Of a stretch of 43,943 nt of DNA, positions 34,931-43,943 are shown piece after piece. Origin of the DNA: Ancalomicrobiaceae bacterium (GTDB lineage: Bacteria > Pseudomonadota > Alphaproteobacteria > Rhizobiales > Ancalomicrobiaceae); contig JARLIU010000114.1 of NCBI GenBank assembly GCA_031291595.1, forward strand, positions 1 through 43,943, written 5' to 3'. Position 1 is the stretch's first letter, and each line of letters opens with the position of its first letter. Position numbers and translations under genes: made by a program. The notes beneath the pieces are model-generated. The model saw only the letters and a list, made by a program, of their open reading frames with translations, searched no databases and was not told the origin of the DNA.

Positions 34931-35002
34931 GCGGGCCGCTCCGGCGCGGGACGGGCGCGCCGGCCGACCTCAGGCCGAAACGGCCGCTCCGAGATAGACA
35001 AC

Positions 35003-35026
35003 AAACGCCCGGTCCGCCGGGCGTTT
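35003..35026 (+). terminator. Intrinsic terminator after the small secreted protein gene
   Basis: AAACGCCCGG-TCCG-CCGGGCGTTT: a perfect 10-bp stem with a UNCG-type tetraloop, followed by TGCTTT. It lies 72 nt past the stop and is the best intrinsic terminator in the window. Confidence 0.88.
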
Positions 35027-35084
35027 TGCTTTGGGGCGACGGCGCCAGACCGTCATACCGCCGGCCGGGCCCTGCAGGCTCCTG

Positions 35085-35156
35085 TGTCCAGGTTGTGGGC
35101 GTCAACCCTTGTCGCTGACGTGTCCAGGCTCCGCGCGTCAGCCCTTGTCGCTGACG
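35085..35156. repeat. 36-bp tandem duplication covering the cobT 3' end
   Basis: Two direct copies of 36 bp (35085-35120 and 35121-35156) share 31 bases. The shared parts are TGTCCAGG at the start and CCCTTGTCGCTGACG at the end. The right copy contains the last codons and stop of cobT; the left copy repeats them beyond the stop. Confidence 0.9.
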
Positions 35157-36160
35157 CCGGCCTCGCCGAAGGTCGCCATGCCCGCATGGGTCGCTGCCGC
35201 GGCCCGCACGATGCCCGCGGCAATCGCCGCGCCGGTGCCCTCGCCGAGCCGCATGCCGAGACTGAGCAGCGGCGTCTTGCCCATGGCGGCGAGCGCGCGG
35301 GCATGCGCTGGTTCGGCCGAGACGTGGGCGAACAGGCAGTGGTCGATGGCGTCCGGCCGGGCCGCATAGACGACCGCGGCCGCAGCCGTGCAGACGTACC
35401 CGTCGACGATCACCGGGATCTTGCGCAGCCGGGCGCCGATGATGGCACCCGCCATGGCGGCGATCTCACGCCCGCCCAGCCGCCGCAGCACCTCGAAGGC
35501 ATCGTCGAGCTTGCCGCCATTGACCCGCACTGCTTGCGCCACCATGGCCGCCTTGTGGGCGAGCGCCGAGCCGGCAACGCCGGTGCCCGGCCCGACCCAG
35601 TCGGCGGCCTCGCCTCCGAACAGCCCCATGTAGACGGCGGCGGCGACCGCGGTGTTGGCGATGCCCATCTCGCCGATGCACAAGAGATCCGGCTCGTTGG
35701 CGAGCGCCTCCATGCCATATGCCATGGTGGCGGCGCAGGCCTGCGGCTCGAACGCCGGGCCTTCCGAGATGTCGGCGGTCGGGAAGTCGAGCGCCAGCTC
35801 GAACACCTTCAGCCCGATGTCGAAGGTCTTGCACAGCTGGTTGATGGCGGCGCCGCAGTTGGCGAAATTGGCCACCATCTGCTTGGTCACGTCCGCCGGG
35901 AAGGCCGAAACGCCCTTGGCGGCGATGCCGTGGTTGGCGGCAAACACCGCCATCAGCGGCTTGTCCACCGTCGGACGCGCCTTGCCCTGCCAGGCGGCCA
36001 GCCATTCGACCAGTTCCTCCAGCCGTCCGAGCGCGCCCGGTGGCTTGGTCAATTGCGCATCGCGCGCCCTGACCGCCGCCACCGCCTCGAGATCCGGGCC
36101 GGGCATGAGATTGACGAGGTCGCGAAAGTCATCGAAAGGATTCTGTGGAAGCGCGGTCAT
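35138..36160 (-). CDS. cobT: Nicotinate-nucleotide:dimethylbenzimidazole phosphoribosyltransferase
   Basis: Makes alpha-ribazole phosphate for the lower ligand of cobalamin. 340 residues. Family marks are LTKPPGALGRLEEL, FAANHGIAAKGVSAFP, GEMGIANTA and GMRLGEGTGAA with the catalytic Glu. Complete. It is divergent from cobS, which uses its product, with about 130 nt between. No cobalamin riboswitch fits in that gap. In some rhizobial naming this enzyme is CobU. Confidence 0.95.
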   Translation of the reverse strand: MTALPQNPFDDFRDLVNLMPGPDLEAVAAVRARDAQLTKPPGALGRLEELVEWLAAWQGKARPTVDKPLMAVFAANHGIAAKGVSAFPADVTKQMVANFANCGAAINQLCKTFDIGLKVFELALDFPTADISEGPAFEPQACAATMAYGMEALANEPDLLCIGEMGIANTAVAAAVYMGLFGGEAADWVGPGTGVAGSALAHKAAMVAQAVRVNGGKLDDAFEVLRRLGGREIAAMAGAIIGARLRKIPVIVDGYVCTAAAAVVYAARPDAIDHCLFAHVSAEPAHARALAAMGKTPLLSLGMRLGEGTGAAIAAGIVRAAAATHAGMATFGEAGVSDKG

Positions 36161-36290
36161 GGGGACTCTCTGCTGGCTGTTGCCGGCGGTCTAGCGTCCG
36201 GGAGGCGATGCGGGCAAGCTCTTTTATTGCCCCATGCAGCCGGCCGGGTACAGCCGCGCGATTCCGACAGGCGTGGAGGCCAGACGATTG

Positions 36291-37106
36291 ATGCACCACG
36301 TATCCGATCCGGTCCGGCCGGAGCTGCTCCCCCGTTTGATCGGCGAGACGCTGGCGATGGTGCGGTTCTATTCCCGGCTGCCGTTGCCCGCGCTCGGCGC
36401 CTTCGACGATCCGGCGGCGCCGCCGCCGTTCGCCGCGGCCTGCCGCATGCTGCCGCTCGCCGCCGTGATCATCGCGCTGCCGGCCGCGGCTGCCATCGCC
36501 TGCCTAGGTCTCACCGTGCTGCCGCCGCTGGCGGCTGCCGGGCTTGCCGTCGCCGTCCTGGCGGCGACGACCGGGGCGCTGCATGAAGACGGGCTCGCCG
36601 ATGTCGCCGACGGATTCGGCGGCGGGCGGACGCGCGAGAAGAAATTGGAGATCATGAAGGACAGCCGCGTCGGCGCCTACGGGGTGATCGCGCTGATGCT
36701 GGCCATTCTCGTCCGCACCAGCCTCTATGCCGCGCTGCTCGGCCGCTCGCCCGCAACGGCGGCGGTCGGTCTGGTGGCCGCGGCGGTCGCGTCGCGCGTC
36801 GCCTCGCTCGTGGTATTCGCCGTGCTGCCGACGGCGCGGCCGGACGGTGTCGCCGGACGGGTCGGACGGCCGACACCCGCCGCCACGGCGACGGCCATCG
36901 TCGTCGGCCTCGTCGTCGTGGCGCTGTGCGGCTGGGCACCGCTCGGGCCCGGCCATGCCGCCGCGGCCACGGCGATCTCGGCAATCGTCGCCTTGGCGCT
37001 TGCCCGACTGGCGACCGCCCAGATCGGCGGGCAGACGGGCGACGTCATCGGCGCGGCGCAGCAACTGGCTGAACTCGGTTTTTTGACCGGCCTCACTCTG
37101 TGGTGA
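36291..37106 (+). CDS. cobS: Adenosylcobinamide-GDP ribazoletransferase (cobalamin synthase)
   Basis: Membrane enzyme that joins adenosylcobinamide-GDP and alpha-ribazole (phosphate), the last step of cobalamin assembly. 271 residues with about seven membrane segments. The conserved acidic motif is [16 protein letters not shown], followed by [14 protein letters not shown]. Start at ATG 36291, with GGAGG about 13 nt upstream; an ATG at 36234 lacks any ribosome-binding site. Pairs functionally with cobT. In some rhizobial naming it is CobV. Confidence 0.93.
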
Positions 37107-37113
37107 GACCGGT
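37086..37113 (+). terminator. Possible terminator hairpin at the cobS end
   Basis: ACCGGCCTCAC (37086-37096) pairs with GTGAGACCGGT (37103-37113) with one mismatch; loop of 6. It spans the cobS stop codon, and no T-run follows. Confidence 0.35.
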
Positions 37114-37223
37114 CGGCGGGCTGCACGCTTGCAGGGCGCGGATCCGCCCCCATTTCTAAGCTAGCTGGCGATTTTCAACCAAGGCATTTCCTGGCCGTCA
37201 CGGCCGCGACCTCGGACGAGCCC

Positions 37224-37838
37224 ATGAGTTTCGGCGACGACACCACCGCGAATTTCCTCTACCTCGGCATCATCATGCTGGTGCTCGTCTCGACGATAAC
37301 CGCGGCTTACCGGTATCGCCTGCGCCAGGGCGTCGGGCATTTCGCCATCTGGGTCGGCATCGTGATGGTGCTGGTCGCCGGCTATGCCTACCGGTCGGAT
37401 GTGTCGGCGGTCGGCCGGCGTACCCTGGCTGCGTTGGTGCCGGGAATGGTGGTCTCGACCGGCGCGTCCGGCGAAGCCGCCGTGGTACGCGGCTCCGACG
37501 GACATTTCCACCTGAGCGCGGGCATCAATGGCGCCACGATCGATCTGATGCTCGACACCGGAGCGAGCAGCGTCGTCCTCACCTACCGGGATGCCCTGGC
37601 CGCCGGGCTCGATCCGGAGCGCTTAAGCTTCACGGCCGAGGTCTCCACCGCCAACGGCGTGACTTCGGCCGCGCCCATCACGCTCGACACGCTGACGATC
37701 GGCGATATCGCGCTCGACCGCGTGCCGGCACTGGTCGCGCGGCCGGGGGCGCTGACGACCAGCCTCCTCGGCAACTCCGTGCTCAATCGCCTCGCGTCCT
37801 TCACCATCGAGGGCGACCGTCTCGTGCTCAGGCAGTAA
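37224..37838 (+). CDS. Membrane-anchored retropepsin-like aspartic protease (TIGR02281 family)
   Basis: 204 residues. Two membrane segments (about 9-27 and 40-56) precede a retropepsin-like domain with the active-site motif LMLDTGASSVVLT (Asp111) and the second-half mark LLGNSVLNRL. Retropepsins work as dimers, each giving one Asp. Bacterial members of this family (clan AA) have no well-fixed substrate. The gene is convergent with dusA and overlaps its end by 11 bp. Ribosome-binding site weak (GGACGAG). Confidence 0.88.
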   Translation: MSFGDDTTANFLYLGIIMLVLVSTITAAYRYRLRQGVGHFAIWVGIVMVLVAGYAYRSDVSAVGRRTLAALVPGMVVSTGASGEAAVVRGSDGHFHLSAGINGATIDLMLDTGASSVVLTYRDALAAGLDPERLSFTAEVSTANGVTSAAPITLDTLTIGDIALDRVPALVARPGALTTSLLGNSVLNRLASFTIEGDRLVLRQ

Positions 37839-38886
37839 CGGCGACGGCGGTTTCGGCCCCAGCCTCCGCACCCCATTCGCGTTGCGCATCGGCGGCGGCG
37901 ACGACCGCGGCGCGGGCCTGACGCAGAACGTCCAGTCCGGCGCCGGGGCGGGAGGCCTCCACCGTCAGGATGCGGCGCCAGGATCGCGCGCCGGGCCGGG
38001 CGGCAAACAGGCCGAGCATGTGCCTTGCGACGGCGGGGAGCCGGCCGCCGGCGGCAAGGTGCTCGGCGACATACGGTTCCAGCCGATCGAGGACATCGAA
38101 GAGGTCGGCGTTCGGCCCGTCCTCGCCGAAGATGCGGCGGTCGACGTCGGCGAGAAGCGCCGGCGTCTCGTAGGCGGCGCGGCCGAGCATCACGCCGTCG
38201 AGCACCGGGCCGTCGGCATCGGCGGCGAGCAGCCGTTCGGCGGAGGCAAGCTCGGCGATACCGCCGTTGAGGACGATCGGCAGCATCGGATACGCCGCCT
38301 TCAGCCGCCGGACGATGGCATAGTCGAGTGGCGGGACGGTGCGGTTTTCCTTTGGGCTCAATCCCTGCAACCAGGCTTTGCGCGCATGCACGATCACCCG
38401 GTCGACGCCCGCCGCGACAATCGCCTCGACCAGCGCCGGCAGCGCCGCTTCCGGGTCCTGGTCATCGATGCCGATGCGGCATTTGACCGTGACCGGGATG
38501 GTGACCGCGGCCTTCATTGCCGCGACGCAGGTGGCGACCAGCAGCGGCTCGGCCATCAGACAGGCGCCGAAGCGACCGGACTGCACGCGGTCGGAGGGGC
38601 AGCCGACATTGAGGTTGATCTCGACGTAGCCGAAATCTTCGCCGACTTTGGCCGCCTCGGCCAGTTCGGCCGGATCCGAGCCACCGATCTGCAGCGCGAC
38701 CGGCTGTTCGGCGGGAGAGAAATCCAGCAGCCGCTTCCGGTCGCCATGCCGGATCGCCGGCGCCGTGACCATTTCGGTATAGAGCAGCGCCCGGCGCGTC
38801 AGCAACCGGTGGAAGACACGGCAGTGCCGGTCCGTCCAATCGATCATCGGGGCCGTAGAAAAACGGTAGCTGGGTAGATCCGCCAT
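37828..38886 (-). CDS. dusA: tRNA-dihydrouridine(20/20a) synthase DusA
   Basis: Flavoenzyme reducing U20/U20a in the D-loop of tRNA. 352 residues from ATG 38886. FMN-barrel marks: STAPMIDWTDRHCRVFHRLL, EINLNVGCPSDRVQSGRFGA with the catalytic Cys, and IVHARKAWLQGLSPKENR. A further in-frame ATG at 38961 would add 25 residues that do not look like DusA. The first codons probably come from the inserted element, since dusA-type integrases cut inside this 5' end. The gene is nevertheless intact. It runs divergently from the integrase. Confidence 0.95.
   Translation of the reverse strand: MADLPSYRFSTAPMIDWTDRHCRVFHRLLTRRALLYTEMVTAPAIRHGDRKRLLDFSPAEQPVALQIGGSDPAELAEAAKVGEDFGYVEINLNVGCPSDRVQSGRFGACLMAEPLLVATCVAAMKAAVTIPVTVKCRIGIDDQDPEAALPALVEAIVAAGVDRVIVHARKAWLQGLSPKENRTVPPLDYAIVRRLKAAYPMLPIVLNGGIAELASAERLLAADADGPVLDGVMLGRAAYETPALLADVDRRIFGEDGPNADLFDVLDRLEPYVAEHLAAGGRLPAVARHMLGLFAARPGARSWRRILTVEASRPGAGLDVLRQARAAVVAAADAQREWGAEAGAETAVAVTA
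38820..38860. other. Probable attachment-site region in the 5' end of dusA
   Basis: Covers the codons of TAPMIDWTDRHC, the conserved stretch of dusA where dusA-associated integrases insert. The exact crossover cannot be set without the other junction, which lies beyond the right edge; I found no second copy of this sequence in the window. Confidence 0.5.
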
Positions 38887-38974
38887 TTTCGTTGATTTCT
38901 GCGGGTTTTCACCGCTAGCAAGATGCCCGTTCACGTGTCTTTGGTTGCCTTTCTCGCCCATTTCGGGTAGGAGT

Positions 38975-39010
38975 TACAACAGATGTTGTAGCTCCGGAGC
39001 CATGTTGTAG
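38975..39010 (+). promoter_or_regulatory. Repeat cluster before the integrase start
   Basis: TACAAC-AGAT-GTTGTA (38975-38990) is a perfect inverted repeat. CTCCGGAG (38992-38999) is a palindrome. The 9-mer ATGTTGTAG occurs twice (38983-38991, 39002-39010), each reading Met-Leu-stop, the second abutting the integrase ATG. AGGAG lies 9 nt before the first. Could be an operator for integrase control, a translational device, or both. Confidence 0.5.
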
Positions 39011-40126
39011 ATGGGCACGATCATCGAGCGCAGGCGCAAGGATGGCTCGATCGCCTATATGGCGCAGATCGCCATGTCTCGCGAGGGCAAATCATTCCGC
39101 GAGAATAAAACCTTCGATCGCCGGCCGGCAGCCACCGCGTGGATCAAGACGCGCGAGCGGGAATTGGCGAACCTCGACCTCGCCCAGATCGTGCCGGCGC
39201 GGCGCGAACCGACGCTGAAGGACGCCATCGACCGCTACATCAAGGAGAGCGTGCACGAACACGGCAAGACGAAAATCCAGGTGCTGAACGCCATCCGGTC
39301 GATGGACATCGCCGAGAGGCAATGCAGCGCCGTCACCAGCCAGGCGCTGGTGGAATTCGCGCAAGAATTGCTCGACGGCGGTCGCGCGCCGCAGACAGTC
39401 CTGAACTACCTGTCTCACCTCAGCGCCTGCATGGCGATCGCCCGGCCGGCCTGGGGCTATTCCCTCGACCAACGGGCGATGGCCGACGCGATCGCGGTCG
39501 CCAAGCGCCTCGGGCTCGTCACCCGAAGCAGGATGCGCAATCGGCGGCCGACCCTCGACGAACTCGACAGGCTCATGCAGTTCTTCGGCGAGCGGCAAAC
39601 GAAGCATCCGGCAAGCATGCCGATGCAGGCCATCATCGCCTTCGCGCTGTTCTCAACACGCCGCGCCGACGAAATCACGCGCATCACGTGGGCCGACTAC
39701 GACAAGGACGGCAAGCGCGTTCTTGTCCGCGACATGAAGCATCCCGGCGAGAAAGTCGGCAACCACATCTGGTGCGATCTACCGGAACAGGCGATCGCGA
39801 TCATCGATAGGATGCCGAGGGTTGCGGATGAGATATTCCCGTACAACTCGAAAACGTTCAGCTCGATCTTCCCGCGCGCCTGCCACATGCTGGCGATCGA
39901 CGATCTCCATTTCCACGATCTGCGGCATGAAGGCATTTCGCGCCTCTTTGAAATGGGTCTCACGATTCCCTATGTCGCCAGCGTCTCAGGCCACCGCTCA
40001 TGGACAAACCTCAAGCGATACACGCATCTGCGGCAGACGGGGGACAAATATGCCGGGTGGAGGTGGCTTCATCCGGTCAGAAATCATCAACCGGGGTCGA
40101 TCGATTGCCCCTGCCCCATCCAGTGA
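39011..40126 (+). CDS. Tyrosine recombinase/integrase of the dusA-associated type
   Basis: 371 residues. An N-terminal arm-binding-like part (about 1-60; MGTIIERRRKDGSIAYMAQI) and a SAM-like core-binding domain (about 65-170) come first. The catalytic domain has Arg218 (FSTRRADEI), Lys243 (RDMKHPGEK), His302-x2-Arg305 (HFHDLRHE), His328 (SGHRS) and Tyr337 (LKRYTHL), a complete set. Position beside and divergent from dusA identifies the target. GGAG lies 11 nt before the ATG. No excisionase is visible nearby. GC content is closer to the host than that of its neighbour. Confidence 0.93.
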   Translation: MGTIIERRRKDGSIAYMAQIAMSREGKSFRENKTFDRRPAATAWIKTRERELANLDLAQIVPARREPTLKDAIDRYIKESVHEHGKTKIQVLNAIRSMDIAERQCSAVTSQALVEFAQELLDGGRAPQTVLNYLSHLSACMAIARPAWGYSLDQRAMADAIAVAKRLGLVTRSRMRNRRPTLDELDRLMQFFGERQTKHPASMPMQAIIAFALFSTRRADEITRITWADYDKDGKRVLVRDMKHPGEKVGNHIWCDLPEQAIAIIDRMPRVADEIFPYNSKTFSSIFPRACHMLAIDDLHFHDLRHEGISRLFEMGLTIPYVASVSGHRSWTNLKRYTHLRQTGDKYAGWRWLHPVRNHQPGSIDCPCPIQ

Positions 40127-40308
40127 TGAAACGGGGCAAAAGTCTAGTCCTTCCTTTCCGCTCGGATAGCAAAAAAACACTGAATTGCAGCAATCCATGG
40201 CGTCAGCAGTTCAAGGCCCCACGATTACCCATGCAACGCCAGTACTGGCCGGCCACATTTACGATACCCCGCAGCCTCGAAATGCCACATCCGGCCATTT
40301 CACTGAAA

Positions 40309-43300
40309 TTACCTAGGGCTCCACAATGGTCGATCCTCATCCAGAATCACAGGCGGCGACTCTTCTCGCCAATAACCCATCACCTCGTCAATGAACATCC
40401 TATTCTGCGAATTGCCACTTAGGCATTCCAATAGGTGCGCAGCTGTTCTATATCCCTCGTCATCCCACGCTTCCTGATCCCGGTGAAGCACAAGGAAAGC
40501 CGCCCGCGTAAACCAGTACGGCATTTCCTTTCCGCACAAAGTTCGCGCCACATGGTAAAGATGCTGCCGCCTAGAGATAGAGCCATCAGGGTGGACCAAG
40601 TATAGAGACATCGCAGCAGCTCTGATGTCTCTGTGTATTTCGTTGTTAACCGCGACATCGAATAATCTATCGCAATCTCGTACGAATTTCGCAACTACAC
40701 GTGAGATGCCATCCAACCAACTCCCACTATTCTCGTCAACGCCAACCACACCCACACCTTCTGTATCGCTCAACTTTGTTACAAAATAACGGGCCCCGAT
40801 CAGTCCAGCAGCCAACGGCACCAAGGCGTTCGCCTCCATAGGTAACCGCACTTCAAATGAGCCAATCTCGGATTCGTACCAACCGCCCTCGCCTGTGCGG
40901 CCGATATTCGCCAGCGCACCCCGCAGTTCGGTTTCTATCTCCGGAAATGTTTGAAACAGACTTCCCAAATTGAACATGTGCCAATATGAAAAATCTATGG
41001 AGCCTACCGCGTCTGCCAATTTCCGTTGCCAGTCGCCCACCGATCGAAGTTGTTCGACAAGGTACTGCCGTATTGAACTCCCGGCCGAACAGATTTCCAG
41101 TAAATATTCCTCTGGACTCTCTCTCAAAGAAATGGCCGGATTTGTAGTCGAAAAATCGGCCGTTCTTTGCCACCCTGGGCGGTCAGTTCGCAGTCTGGAG
41201 ATCGTGCCGTCGTATGACAATTCTACAAAATTCTGAAGATTTCCAGACGGCCATGCAAGGCACATTTTGCGCTCTCTGAATATTGAGCCATCACCTCTAG
41301 ACACAGCGCTAGCAACAATTCCGACCTCATGAAAAAATCCCCCATGCGAAAGTAATTCATCGACAACATCGCTATCCCAATATCCGGCCTCAGCGTCATC
41401 TATCGGCTTGGCATATCGATATGATATGCTATTTCGACCAATCTCCTCGATCTCATTACTCCGGTCAAATCGATTTCTTTCATCTCCCGGATTAAATCGC
41501 ACGCGATTGAGCGTTTTACGCGAAAGGAGCGGCACCTGCACGGCAGCAATTTCATTCGGACTTGAGAATTCAAGGACAATCAGCGCCAAAGCGGACTGCT
41601 CCTCTTTACCAAACGAATTCCAGACTTCCGAAGCTGTCCATTCAAAAAACATCTTCGTTGCCCAAGTCCCCAATCGAAACACACTCTCACTTACAAGCCG
41701 GACTAGTGCAACCTTGAATTCCAAGGACATGCCGTTTACAATTACTTCACAAGATGAAGCTAACCCATGGTCCAAAGTAAGGTATTTGCAAAGGAATATT
41801 GCCGCACCCAGAACCTCACTCTCGGCTTTCTCTCGCAATGCTGCGTGCGACACGCCGATAAACCATGATACGGAATGCGGCGGTACAAGGCCCTCCACCA
41901 AGCCACTTGGCCGGGGTTGGGCGCACAGTGGCTCTAGCACTGGACGAAAGATGGACCGCACCCTCTTATCAGCCTCAAGGACTCCTTCGCTCAACAGTCG
42001 AGAACCTATGAGTGCACTAGTACCTAGTATTCGACGCAAGATTCGAAGCTCTTCATCTCCATTTGCGTCATCGAACGTCAAAAGTGAGCTAACTGCGATT
42101 GAGAGTTCGGCTGTCTTCCCGTTTTCAACAAGCGCACTTAGGATAAAATGAGCTACCTCTCGCCAGTGCGCAGATGCTAGCAATATGTTAAATCTTTCGC
42201 GAAATATATCAGATGACTGGACATCATATACGTACTCAGATGCAAAGAACTCCTGTAATGGCCTAACATCAAAACGCACTTTCGTGCTTGACTCTGGTGT
42301 GCTAACAAGAACAAGTCTCTCCATAGTTGCTTCCATTAGAAGCGATACAGTTTCGTCTACATGATCATCTTGCAATAGACAAACCGTCTCGCGCACGAGA
42401 CTTCTCAAGTCGTCTCGACCGAGAGACGCTTGAGCTCCGCCGCTGCGCTCCGCCCGTGCATGTAGCTCAAATCCGATGCGACTATGTAGCGCCTTAATCA
42501 GGCGGTCTCCTTTATTCAATAAGTTTGCAAGAGGTTTGTTCGGGAGATTTCTGTTTGCTTCCCGCTTCTTTATCACGCGATAGAAATTCTCAAATAACTG
42601 CCATTTGCGCTCTGGAGGTCGGCCACCGTCTCTGACCACAACAGCCATTATGTGAGCCTGCAGTGGAGTTGTCATAATTTGCTTGACTGATTCAGATTCT
42701 AGTGCGGCGGCCAATATCTTTGCAGCCTCCTCCGCTTCATCGCGACTACGTTGGAATCTTAATAAAGGCTGAGCGCACAAGAAAGCCTCTTCAGCCTCCA
42801 ACGTACAGAGATCAAGCCGCACGCTGCGCATTGCATCAAACTGACCCGAATACCCTTGTGGCCTAGACGTCGCGAATATCACCGCATCACAATTATTCTC
42901 CACTAGAATTTGATCCGAGAATATTATTACTTGCTCGGAAACCTCTCCCTTCACATCGTTCGGGACCTCATCAAGCCCATCAAATACAAACATCCAACGA
43001 TCAAGGGAAAGCGCACTCAACAAGGTCTTTGGAAGAAGCTGTACTTCGGCCTTTTCAAGAATATTCTGGCATACATAACTAACTATACCTCTTGGCTCTC
43101 CCTTTACCCGGGCCCCTATCCATTGTGCAAAATCCCTTAGTTCGACGTAGACGGGGATCCTCGGCGCCAAAGGCCACGACTCTAGGCGCTCAGCCACCGC
43201 GCGAATCTCTTCGCAGGCAGCACGAGCTGCAGGTGTGACAGCCAATTCATCGTTTGCCAGAATAAGAGCCGCCCGCTGCACTTGGCTCAAGAATTGGGTG

Positions 43301-43943
43301 ACCGTCGACTTTCCTTGGCCTGGACCACCTCGTATTAGCCAAGAGCTTGAGCAATGCAATGTCCTCGTATTTGCGCCGTATATCAACACTCCATTTGATA
43401 CTGGCCTGTGATTTAGGGCAACGCTCTTGGCTAACGTGTAAGTCACTCTTCCACGAAATCCGTCTTTCGACAGCTCATAAGGAATTTCCGTGAATAGCTC
43501 CTGAATCGATGGTCGGGAATCAGCGCTTGCACCGGCTTGTTCTAGTTTTGTATACTGCTGATCGTAAAATCGCCTTGTAACAAGGTACCGAATTAATTCA
43601 GTTCGATTTAGATATTTGTCAGATGTAGCCCGCATTATGGCGGCAAGTATGACGCCAGGAGTCAAGTAATGAAGATAATGGGTAGCGACCCCTTCGAATT
43701 GAATAAGTAGATCTAAAATCTTGCACCCCCCCCAAATATGAAATCGCTTCGCAAGTGATGGGGATAATTCTTCAACCAAACGCATTATCGCGTCATAGCT
43801 GCCAGTCTCAGGAGCGCCCGATGGATCAATATTGGTTGCAATTATCCAGATATCCGGTATTTGACGCTTATTGTCGGGCTTCCTGAAGGCCGCAATCTCC
43901 TTCTTCGCTTGCTCAACGAGCCAACTTTGAGCGTTTGTCGAAA
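40309..43943 (-). CDS. Giant STAND/NACHT NTPase, N-terminus beyond the window (defence candidate)
   Basis: At least 1,210 residues. The frame stays open to the right edge, so the true start is outside; the first internal ATG is at 43785. Numbering from that Met: Walker A GGPGQGKST (153-161), Walker B WMFVFDGLDEVP (264-275), sensor VIFATSRPQGY (302-312) and the winged-helix mark VRFDVRPLQEFFASEY (503-518). These define a NACHT-type STAND ATPase. Residues about 520-1158 match no domain I know and should be the sensor. Bacterial NACHT and Avs proteins are anti-phage receptors with an N-terminal effector; here only 52 residues precede the Met, including IPDIWIIATNID. Codon use is markedly AT-richer than in the core genes. 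Convergent with the integrase; the 182 nt between hold nothing I recognise. Confidence 0.88.
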   Translation of the reverse strand, partial: STNAQSWLVEQAKKEIAAFRKPDNKRQIPDIWIIATNIDPSGAPETGSYDAIMRLVEELSPSLAKRFHIWGGCKILDLLIQFEGVATHYLHYLTPGVILAAIMRATSDKYLNRTELIRYLVTRRFYDQQYTKLEQAGASADSRPSIQELFTEIPYELSKDGFRGRVTYTLAKSVALNHRPVSNGVLIYGANTRTLHCSSSWLIRGGPGQGKSTVTQFLSQVQRAALILANDELAVTPAARAACEEIRAVAERLESWPLAPRIPVYVELRDFAQWIGARVKGEPRGIVSYVCQNILEKAEVQLLPKTLLSALSLDRWMFVFDGLDEVPNDVKGEVSEQVIIFSDQILVENNCDAVIFATSRPQGYSGQFDAMRSVRLDLCTLEAEEAFLCAQPLLRFQRSRDEAEEAAKILAAALESESVKQIMTTPLQAHIMAVVVRDGGRPPERKWQLFENFYRVIKKREANRNLPNKPLANLLNKGDRLIKALHSRIGFELHARAERSGGAQASLGRDDLRSLVRETVCLLQDDHVDETVSLLMEATMERLVLVSTPESSTKVRFDVRPLQEFFASEYVYDVQSSDIFRERFNILLASAHWREVAHFILSALVENGKTAELSIAVSSLLTFDDANGDEELRILRRILGTSALIGSRLLSEGVLEADKRVRSIFRPVLEPLCAQPRPSGLVEGLVPPHSVSWFIGVSHAALREKAESEVLGAAIFLCKYLTLDHGLASSCEVIVNGMSLEFKVALVRLVSESVFRLGTWATKMFFEWTASEVWNSFGKEEQSALALIVLEFSSPNEIAAVQVPLLSRKTLNRVRFNPGDERNRFDRSNEIEEIGRNSISYRYAKPIDDAEAGYWDSDVVDELLSHGGFFHEVGIVASAVSRGDGSIFRERKMCLAWPSGNLQNFVELSYDGTISRLRTDRPGWQRTADFSTTNPAISLRESPEEYLLEICSAGSSIRQYLVEQLRSVGDWQRKLADAVGSIDFSYWHMFNLGSLFQTFPEIETELRGALANIGRTGEGGWYESEIGSFEVRLPMEANALVPLAAGLIGARYFVTKLSDTEGVGVVGVDENSGSWLDGISRVVAKFVRDCDRLFDVAVNNEIHRDIRAAAMSLYLVHPDGSISRRQHLYHVARTLCGKEMPYWFTRAAFLVLHRDQEAWDDEGYRTAAHLLECLSGNSQNRMFIDEVMGYWREESPPVILDEDRPLWSPR

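Follow-up and report, generated by a model that had tools for sequence, protein, structure and literature searches.

The window analyzed here is the whole of contig C268 (JARLIU010000114.1; 43,943 bases) of the Ancalomicrobiaceae bacterium genome G000 (GCA_031291595.1), a draft of 319 contigs that is 95.65% complete. It includes dusA, the gene for tRNA-dihydrouridine synthase A, and a divergently oriented gene, int, for an intact tyrosine recombinase that reads away from it, with 124 nt between the two starts (Table 1). An earlier note on this DNA had described this layout correctly and had read it as an island inserted in the 5′ end of dusA by a member of a known family of integrases that target this gene. 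The dusA frame is whole, as that note also held, and codes for 352 amino acids counted from the ATG at 38886. A longer in-frame start is present at 38961, and the length of the gap between dusA and int therefore varies with the start chosen; the start at 38886 is favored by the relatives and by the reading MADLPSYRFSTAPMIDWTDRHC. The integrase open reading frame codes for 371 amino acids and includes the catalytic residues R218, K243, H302, R305, H328, and Y337, all at least 93% conserved in the alignment. We consider it highly probable that the window holds the dusA-side end of an integrative element, and that its dusA-associated integrase (DAI) is a bivalent, lambda-like enzyme with arm-type sites read by its residues 17, 19, 21, and 23.

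Table 1. Features of the dusA–int locus; positions are those of the window.
Feature	Position	Strand	Evidence or remark
dusA, tRNA-dihydrouridine synthase A	37828..38886	-	Pfam Dus, E=2.1e-76; target gene of the island, frame intact
Attachment (att) core inside dusA, dusA-side (attL-type) copy, TCCAATCGATCATCGGGGC	38835..38853	+	Sole zero-mismatch match of the degenerate pattern derived from relatives in its own genome
Visible part of the island	38854..43943	.	Left end at the att core; right end cut by the contig end
Putative arm-type half-site 1, inverted copy	38974..38981	-	In the first arm of the inverted repeat 38970-38981/38984-38995
Putative arm-type half-site 2, TGTTGTAG	38984..38991	+	Second arm of the inverted repeat
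Putative arm-type half-site 3, TGTTGTAG	39003..39010	+	Last base directly precedes the int start codon
int, dusA-associated integrase, tyrosine recombinase	39011..40126	+	Pfam Phage_integrase, E=3.9e-17; residues 1-55 form an arm-binding-type domain
NACHT-like NTPase gene, cargo	40309..43943	-	1210 codons visible; 5′ end past the contig end

Islands specific for dusA are described in the main text of Farrugia et al. 2015 (PMC4482086) as having the 5′ end of int facing the 5′ end of dusA, a semi-conserved core of about 21 bp in dusA, a replaced dusA 5′ end, and very varied cargo. The window island resembles them in its integrase homology, in the facing 5′ ends, and in the core inside dusA. In tblastn comparisons the window integrase shared 54% identity with that of Burkholderia phage AH2 (E 2e-130), 50% with Pseudomonas phage H66 (6e-108), and 47% with BcepIL02 (5e-94), all three of which the same main text names as DAI carriers; the top phage match was a Rhizobium phage (58%). 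These values lie within the BLAST threshold of E 1e-20 that defines DAIs there, the comparison here being with these phage integrases. The RHRH tetrad and nucleophilic tyrosine that characterize DAIs are also present (R218, H302, R305, H328, and Y337), with K243 besides. Relatives of the integrase were found at E 1e-30 in 40 of 397 genomes of the same order (41 matches, own genome included), and dusA adjoined the integrase gene in the same layout in 26 of the 29 relatives' loci examined (29 of the 40 non-own matches); the other three were L106, L111, and L112, and the start of L106 is close to the end of its contig, at a distance of 192 nt. The integrase tree, built from 37 sequences, placed the window integrase in a supported group of 26 (100/99) that includes AH2 and 17 other dusA-adjacent proteins, and did not resolve its closest kin within that group. 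As judged by sequence, then, the integrase belongs to the published dusA-associated integrases, as the earlier note had supposed, and the window island is one more dusA insertion of an already known type. The main text of PMC4482086 names the Rci shufflon recombinase as the closest family to the DAIs. The window integrase is 32% identical, through catalytic domain homology, to an E. albertii plasmid recombinase beside pilV. Rci falls outside the DAIs on the integrase tree, on a long branch, and Rci proteins are without an arm-binding domain according to the main text of a survey of arm-binding recombinases (PMC8138268).

The att core of the window occupies the same dusA codons as the near att copy of six relatives. 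These six are all the relatives for which about 60 kb was fetched; a seventh, G073, had only 4 kb before its contig end. In every one of the six, a second core was found (16.9, 24.6, 37.1, 49.3, 53.8, and 56.4 kb away), and it reads into a dusA-like N-terminus that has its own start codon. The core match of G265 (18/24) was no better than the best of five shuffles, and it is the displaced N-terminus that carries this case. The exchange of the dusA 5′ end that had been predicted for the window is thus seen in the islands of all six relatives, and in the window itself dusA codons 1 to about 11-17 are probably island-derived. A Vibrio study of another dusA island (PMC8409611) reports that the island gives dusA a new promoter and frame, and describes an RdfN factor of 76 amino acids. 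The promoter that the earlier note expected the window element to supply did not appear: a sigma-70 consensus scan of 38800-40330 found none. The string CGATCATCG occurs in the att core at 38841-38849 and again in the first int codons at 39018-39026, probably by chance.

The probable position of the insertion was also compared with two congeners. DNA homology between the window and G002 spans 35101-38854 and ends at the edge of the att core, at dusA codon 11, while the last piece of homology with G001 ends at 38865; counted from the dusA ATG, these ends lie at +32 and +21, respectively. The G+C content is 0.62-0.72 in the intervals sampled across 35001-40000 and 0.47-0.52 from 40001 onward, so that it drops past the integrase gene. 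All six control pairs within two other integrase-free genera of the family kept homology through the start codon and at least 263 nt upstream. Two observations weigh against reading these ends as the mark of an insertion. The homology between G001 and G002 stops at +16, and a third genus without a detected integrase also breaks, at +19 (L053/L054) and +16 (L046/L053). A homology break at the dusA start is therefore, taken alone, no proof of a DAI. The loss of homology in L046, L053, and L054, which come from genomes with no DAI detected, perhaps reflects an old insertion whose integrase is gone.

The integrase could in principle be a resident chromosomal gene beside dusA, with no island inserted, and the visibility of one end only of the supposed island would agree with this. 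We regard this as extremely unlikely because a search of 61 genomes at E 1e-20 left 57, both congeners included, with no match to the integrase (its own genome is among the four that matched), and because homology ends at the core and a low-G+C gene follows. At E 1e-20 neither congener gave a match to the integrase, nor did either match the NACHT-like protein; the earlier note had named a shared insert in sister genomes as the observation that would speak against an island, and none was found in these two. What G002 does carry, at the same place and in the same orientation, is just a broken 55-residue integrase start (in L044:8234-8509, minus strand; MATISKRG...). Its best matches were N-termini of another dusA-adjacent branch of the family (best E 9.9e-7, in a small set with composition correction off), and against phages it matched integrase N-termini in 10 records (E 3e-3); a Pfam search with this fragment gave no integrase match. 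The fragment is probably what is left of an earlier, now broken insertion at this target, and dusA has probably been hit more than once in this genus.

DAI islands are flanked by two att repeats of about 21 bp (main text of PMC4482086); in the window the dusA-side copy is seen and the second is not, the contig ending within the island. Searches of its own draft genome with exact and degenerate cores yielded no second att for the window island, which weighs against the reading as an integrative element. The exact core with up to three mismatches had a single match in the genome, the window itself. The degenerate core with at most one mismatch had nine, and all but that of the window were rejected on reading the flanks. 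A pattern of the core plus the dusA start had 11 matches. Ten were read, the window's included, and all others were rejected, among them one on C125 inside a substrate-binding-protein gene; the eleventh, L168, is identical to L167 over the 23 letters. The last 200 bases of the window have no overlap with any other contig. Since the contig ends within the island, the missing second att neither supports nor refutes it. The second att copy that the earlier note proposed to locate was thus obtained for the relatives, and for the window only on the dusA side. When the genes that lie upstream of dusA in G002 were used to search for the far flank (40 of 380 candidates scored), Cfa, SerA, and Ugd were found on C203, which ends inside Cfa, and a chemotaxis gene was found on C192 in a different setting. 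The C203 cluster (L090, 1-4098), which reaches the contig end, is a candidate far flank of the island. No open reading frame was common to more than three of 21 loci compared for a conserved upstream neighbor of dusA. The reading as an integrative element predicts a second core (TCNANCATNGGNGC) further right, together with a dusA-like start that reads into this core and, 50-75 nt inward of it, a site of the CTACAACA type. The island might instead be a fixed remnant with int intact, its far att lost or changed, and excision no longer possible. The absence of a second core from a 95.65% complete draft would fit this, as would the short integrase start at the same place in G002. Nonetheless, the contig breaks within the island and a draft in 319 pieces leaves room for the missing end, and the integrase, the core, and three half-sites are all intact. 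We therefore consider a remnant unlikely, and the island may still be mobile.

Tyrosine integrases are known to need arm sites. The gap between the core and int contains GGAGTTACAACA-GA-TGTTGTAGCTCC at 38970-38995, and three putative half-sites, an inverted pair and a direct copy that touches the int start codon, were recognized in this region. The relatives have the same half-site layout in different letters. A triad score was defined for an inverted pair and a direct copy 19-22 nt further, with 7-mers, a maximum of 14, and a cut-off of 12. In the discovery set 23 of 38 loci reached the cut-off. The clade of the window accounted for 22 of its 29 loci, 13 of them perfect, and the other integrase branches (L116-L123 and L043) for one of nine; this locus, L119, whose third copy is 33 nt away from the start, was excluded from later counts. 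A later search of viral contigs returned 80 loci, of which the 41 with at least 110 nt ahead of int were scored, and 33 of the 41 had 12 or more. For comparison, this score was reached by 11 of 1230 dinucleotide-shuffled sequences and by 6 of the 184 windows taken elsewhere in these loci. The core lies 168-195 nt ahead of int in all 41. Two further scans, run with different queries, found 72 loci of sufficient length; 42 of these shared at least 90% identity with loci already seen and were dropped, which left 30. Eight of the 30 were earlier failures again (L270, L274, L275, L279, L285, L296, and L304, recognized by contig name, and L335, by length and identity), and 15 of the 22 new loci reached the cut-off. 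Among the 22 clade loci under 12, about 18 have looser versions by eye, and L067, L334, and L106 have no clear set. A plasmid DNA search with the int–dusA gap as the query gave no match. The second dusA-adjacent integrase branch, L118-L123, has GCACAC-type repeats before int and no triad layout, and its arm sites may follow another rule.

Half-sites were also found away from int. In all six relatives, a further copy of the island's own half-site is present on the opposite strand, 51-72 nt inward of the far core, exactly in four and with one mismatch in two; the control for this is weak, for half-sites of other islands, a few letters different, match there too, up to two times each. In a cleaner test, the region left of the core was compared in 69 islands besides the window, excepting L332, which had no core match, and seven others that lacked sequence. 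Among the attP-like loci, those with no dusA on the left, 11 of 14 have a copy of the island's half-site, with no more than one mismatch, at a distance of 40-90 nt to the left of the core, where 0.2 were expected from shuffles. None of the 47 loci with dusA on the left do. By analogy with lambda, whose core is flanked by arm-type sites on both sides, this is the layout of a two-armed attP. An alternative is that the three half-sites form an operator of the int promoter, for an island repressor or a directionality factor of the RdfN/PrtN type. The third copy is located right beside the int start codon or close to it (1 nt ahead in the window and 0-5 nt in many islands), as an operator might be, and dusA islands have a factor, RdfN, that is predicted to bind DNA (PMC8409611). 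We find an operator role alone quite improbable, since the six relatives also have matching sites at the island end remote from int, the attP-like loci have them left of the core, and the half-site tracks alternate residues of one integrase strand, as described below. It is possible that the half-sites serve both the integrase and RdfN.

The half-sites covary with the N-terminus of the integrase. The comparison included 55 islands, 22 from the discovery set and 33 from viral contigs, which form 1485 pairs, 1051 of them with a catalytic distance above 0.35. Half-site distance correlated with the distance of integrase residues 1-40 (r 0.435 over the 1485 pairs; partial 0.40 given the rest of the integrase; 0 of 200 permutations as high), and with the catalytic part at 0.206. 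Physical linkage is a fair objection because the half-sites adjoin codon 1. The covariation could be a by-product of linkage or shared descent, the 5′ int codons and the half-sites being exchanged as one block; codon 1 and the half-sites are indeed no more than about 50 nt apart, and islands that are closely related have both in common. However, the half-site was barely tracked by 4-fold sites of codons 1-60 (r 0.030), third positions of codons 1-40 (0.125), the 42 nt upstream (0.163), or the 9 nt between copies (0.106). The signal is also concentrated in alternate positions: among the 1051 distant pairs, residues 17, 19, 21, and 23 gave r 0.587 and residues 16, 18, 20, and 22 gave 0.045. In addition, the rule for residue 21 given below is kept among representatives less than 62% identical. 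These results make an origin by linkage very unlikely. None of 2000 random sets of four variable columns past residue 40 reached 0.587; this value is partly selected, because the four columns were picked after the single-column results, and the later loci are a fairer test. When each half-site was predicted from the unrelated integrase with the closest residues 17, 19, 21, and 23, the identity was 0.823, compared to 0.632 with permuted assignments (highest of 300, 0.685) and 0.645 with the donor nearest by catalytic domain.

The rules were examined in 70 islands, the 55 above and 15 from the later scans. Arginine or lysine at residue 21 occurs with C at base 6 in 35 of 35 islands, and other residues with a base other than C in the other 35, with no exceptions. 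The rule was kept in 19 of 19 representatives when one island was taken per cluster below 62% identity. Glutamine at residue 19 goes with G at base 5, lysine at residue 23 with C at base 8, and methionine or asparagine at residue 23 with A at base 8. The links of residue 17 to base 3 are weaker (histidine in three of the five islands with C; arginine in two of the three with G). The window integrase, with M, Q, A, and S at residues 17, 19, 21, and 23 and the half-site TGTTGTAG, fits the rules. We think it reasonably likely, from these covariations, that the N-terminal sheet recognizes the arm sites through a simple code, in which residue 17 goes with bases 3/4, residue 19 with base 5, residue 21 with base 6, and residue 23 with base 8, and that arm specificity turns over fast, giving each island a private address.

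Several results count against such a code. Residues 28, 30, 32, and 34 gave r 0.346 among the pairs with catalytic distance above 0.35, and a weaker signal is present in residues 101-165 (partial 0.12-0.17; 2-4 of 200 permutations as high). The best single columns for distant pairs were 21, 163, 146, 110, 17, and 7, and the second to fourth of these lie outside the N-terminus, 163 and 110 being almost invariant. The rules other than that for residue 21 have exceptions among the 70 islands: three for residue 19 (L247, L332, and L397), three for lysine at residue 23 (L184, L221, and L237), and two for methionine or asparagine there (L178 and L184). The half-site registers of L113 and L332 were moved one base by hand, and L332 is itself one of the exceptions. 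On a tree of residues 41-345 the base-6 class needs at least seven changes (6-7 over bootstraps), three of them forced by well-supported branches, so that it rests on just about seven independent changes. The later islands are a lopsided test: 12 of the 15 are R21 types, and they therefore test the R21 half of the rule best. One of the loci with no clear triad, L106 (G295), has TGTACCA beside S21, which breaks the residue-21 rule if this is its site.

An AlphaFold2 model of the window integrase, built from 55 sequences (predicted local distance difference test score, pLDDT, 89), has strands at residues 3-8, 14-24, and 27-35 and a helix at 38-54. In this model a predicted N-terminal beta-sheet domain precedes the core-binding and catalytic domains. 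Residues 17, 19, 21, and 23 alternate on strand 2 and therefore should share one face, as follows from strand order. Comparison of the model with known structures listed the Tn1549 and lambda integrases first. Residues 14-352 of lambda integrase (1z1b) align with model residues 1-344 (Z 18.4, root-mean-square deviation 14.1, 308 residues aligned), and the high deviation suggests that the domains are arranged differently. Sequence searches of the PDB with the integrase and with the NACHT-like protein gave no match. The likeness to lambda is weakened by the N-terminal domain taken alone (model pLDDT 90), which matched nothing in the PDB at E 0.001; in a second look its best Z was 6.2, to unrelated folds, with no integrase among the 50 matches listed. 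The main text of PMC8138268 describes arm-binding recombinases of the lambda, Tn916, and P2 kind as having a small N-terminal sheet-plus-helix domain followed by core-binding and catalytic domains, an organization like that predicted for the window integrase.

Taken together, these features suggest the following mechanism. The DAI would recombine a short core in dusA (codons A-P-M-I/L-D-W) with the att site of the element, and on integration dusA would get a new start from the element, with the original start displaced to the far end. The integrase would be bivalent and lambda-like: its catalytic part would act on the dusA core, and its N-terminal three-stranded sheet would bind arm-type half-sites. 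Three of these would be on the int side (an inverted pair and a direct copy adjoining the int start codon), with one or two more inside the other end. The strand 2 residues 17, 19, 21, and 23 would read half-site bases 3/4, 5, 6, and 8, and islands with one chromosomal target would therefore have different, private arm sites. Arm-type sites on both sides of the core are a feature of the lambda kind, and here they were also found in relatives' islands and attP-like loci. Unlike in the lambda kind, the putative DAI arm sites vary among islands of a single family with a common target, following a rule per residue.

The main text of PMC4482086 does not mention inverted repeats, palindromes, or arm-type sites, whereas private half-sites and their covariation with the integrase are described here. 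The main text of PMC8409611 is likewise silent on all three, and that of the survey PMC8138268 includes neither dusA nor coevolution. No mapping of arm sites of dusA integrases was found in the literature consulted, most of it in the form of titles or the beginnings of abstracts and with subscription journals thinly covered. If the code holds, arm sites, and hence island ends, would be predictable from the integrase sequence, and with a private address an integrase could distinguish the ends of its own island from those of a competitor inserted at the shared target. The question of how elements with the same chromosomal target avoid excising one another is thereby made testable. The family-wide arm-site code, reached through the int–dusA gap, is the part most worth the attention of specialists.

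The contig stops 3.8 kb to the right of int, and the cargo worth mining that the earlier note expected amounts to one incomplete NACHT-like gene, the only large gene there. A prtN/rdfN homologue is present in 60 of 94 islands (main text of PMC4482086), and IMEVchUSA3 and SGI1-like Vibrio dusA elements carry rdfN and transfer genes (main text of PMC8409611), whereas no rdfN was noticed in the 3.8 kb of the window. Neither prtN nor rdfN was noticed among open reading frames of at least 80 amino acids in 40127-43943, a range in which RdfN (76 amino acids) could be missed, no profile search having been made and most of the island lying past the contig end. On the Phaeobacter plasmid pP66_i (L157), a DAI-like integrase with no dusA core match upstream adjoins a PrtN-family gene.

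The NACHT-like protein has the motifs GGPGQGKST and FDGLDEVP. It scored 14.1 bits against the Pfam NACHT model and missed the gathering score of 26.7; it is therefore named NACHT-like only, GGxGxGKST and FDGLDEVP being common to two plasmid homologues. It had no match in PADLOC or, by tblastn, in phages, and it matched one PHROG of unknown function (E 1.1e-5). At E 1e-20 it was found in four of 397 genomes of the order, its own included. It also matched 19 plasmid records, the best of which (43.6% over 56%) is from Klebsiella variicola, near an annotated Lit-type phage exclusion gene. The two plasmid homologues start about 74 residues earlier, with the motifs FEHxV, DGGR, and IQxKF, and the equivalent part of the window gene lies past the contig end. 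These motifs may point to Mrr-type nucleases. The homologues also have a long C-terminal part, and a defense role for this cargo is a guess.

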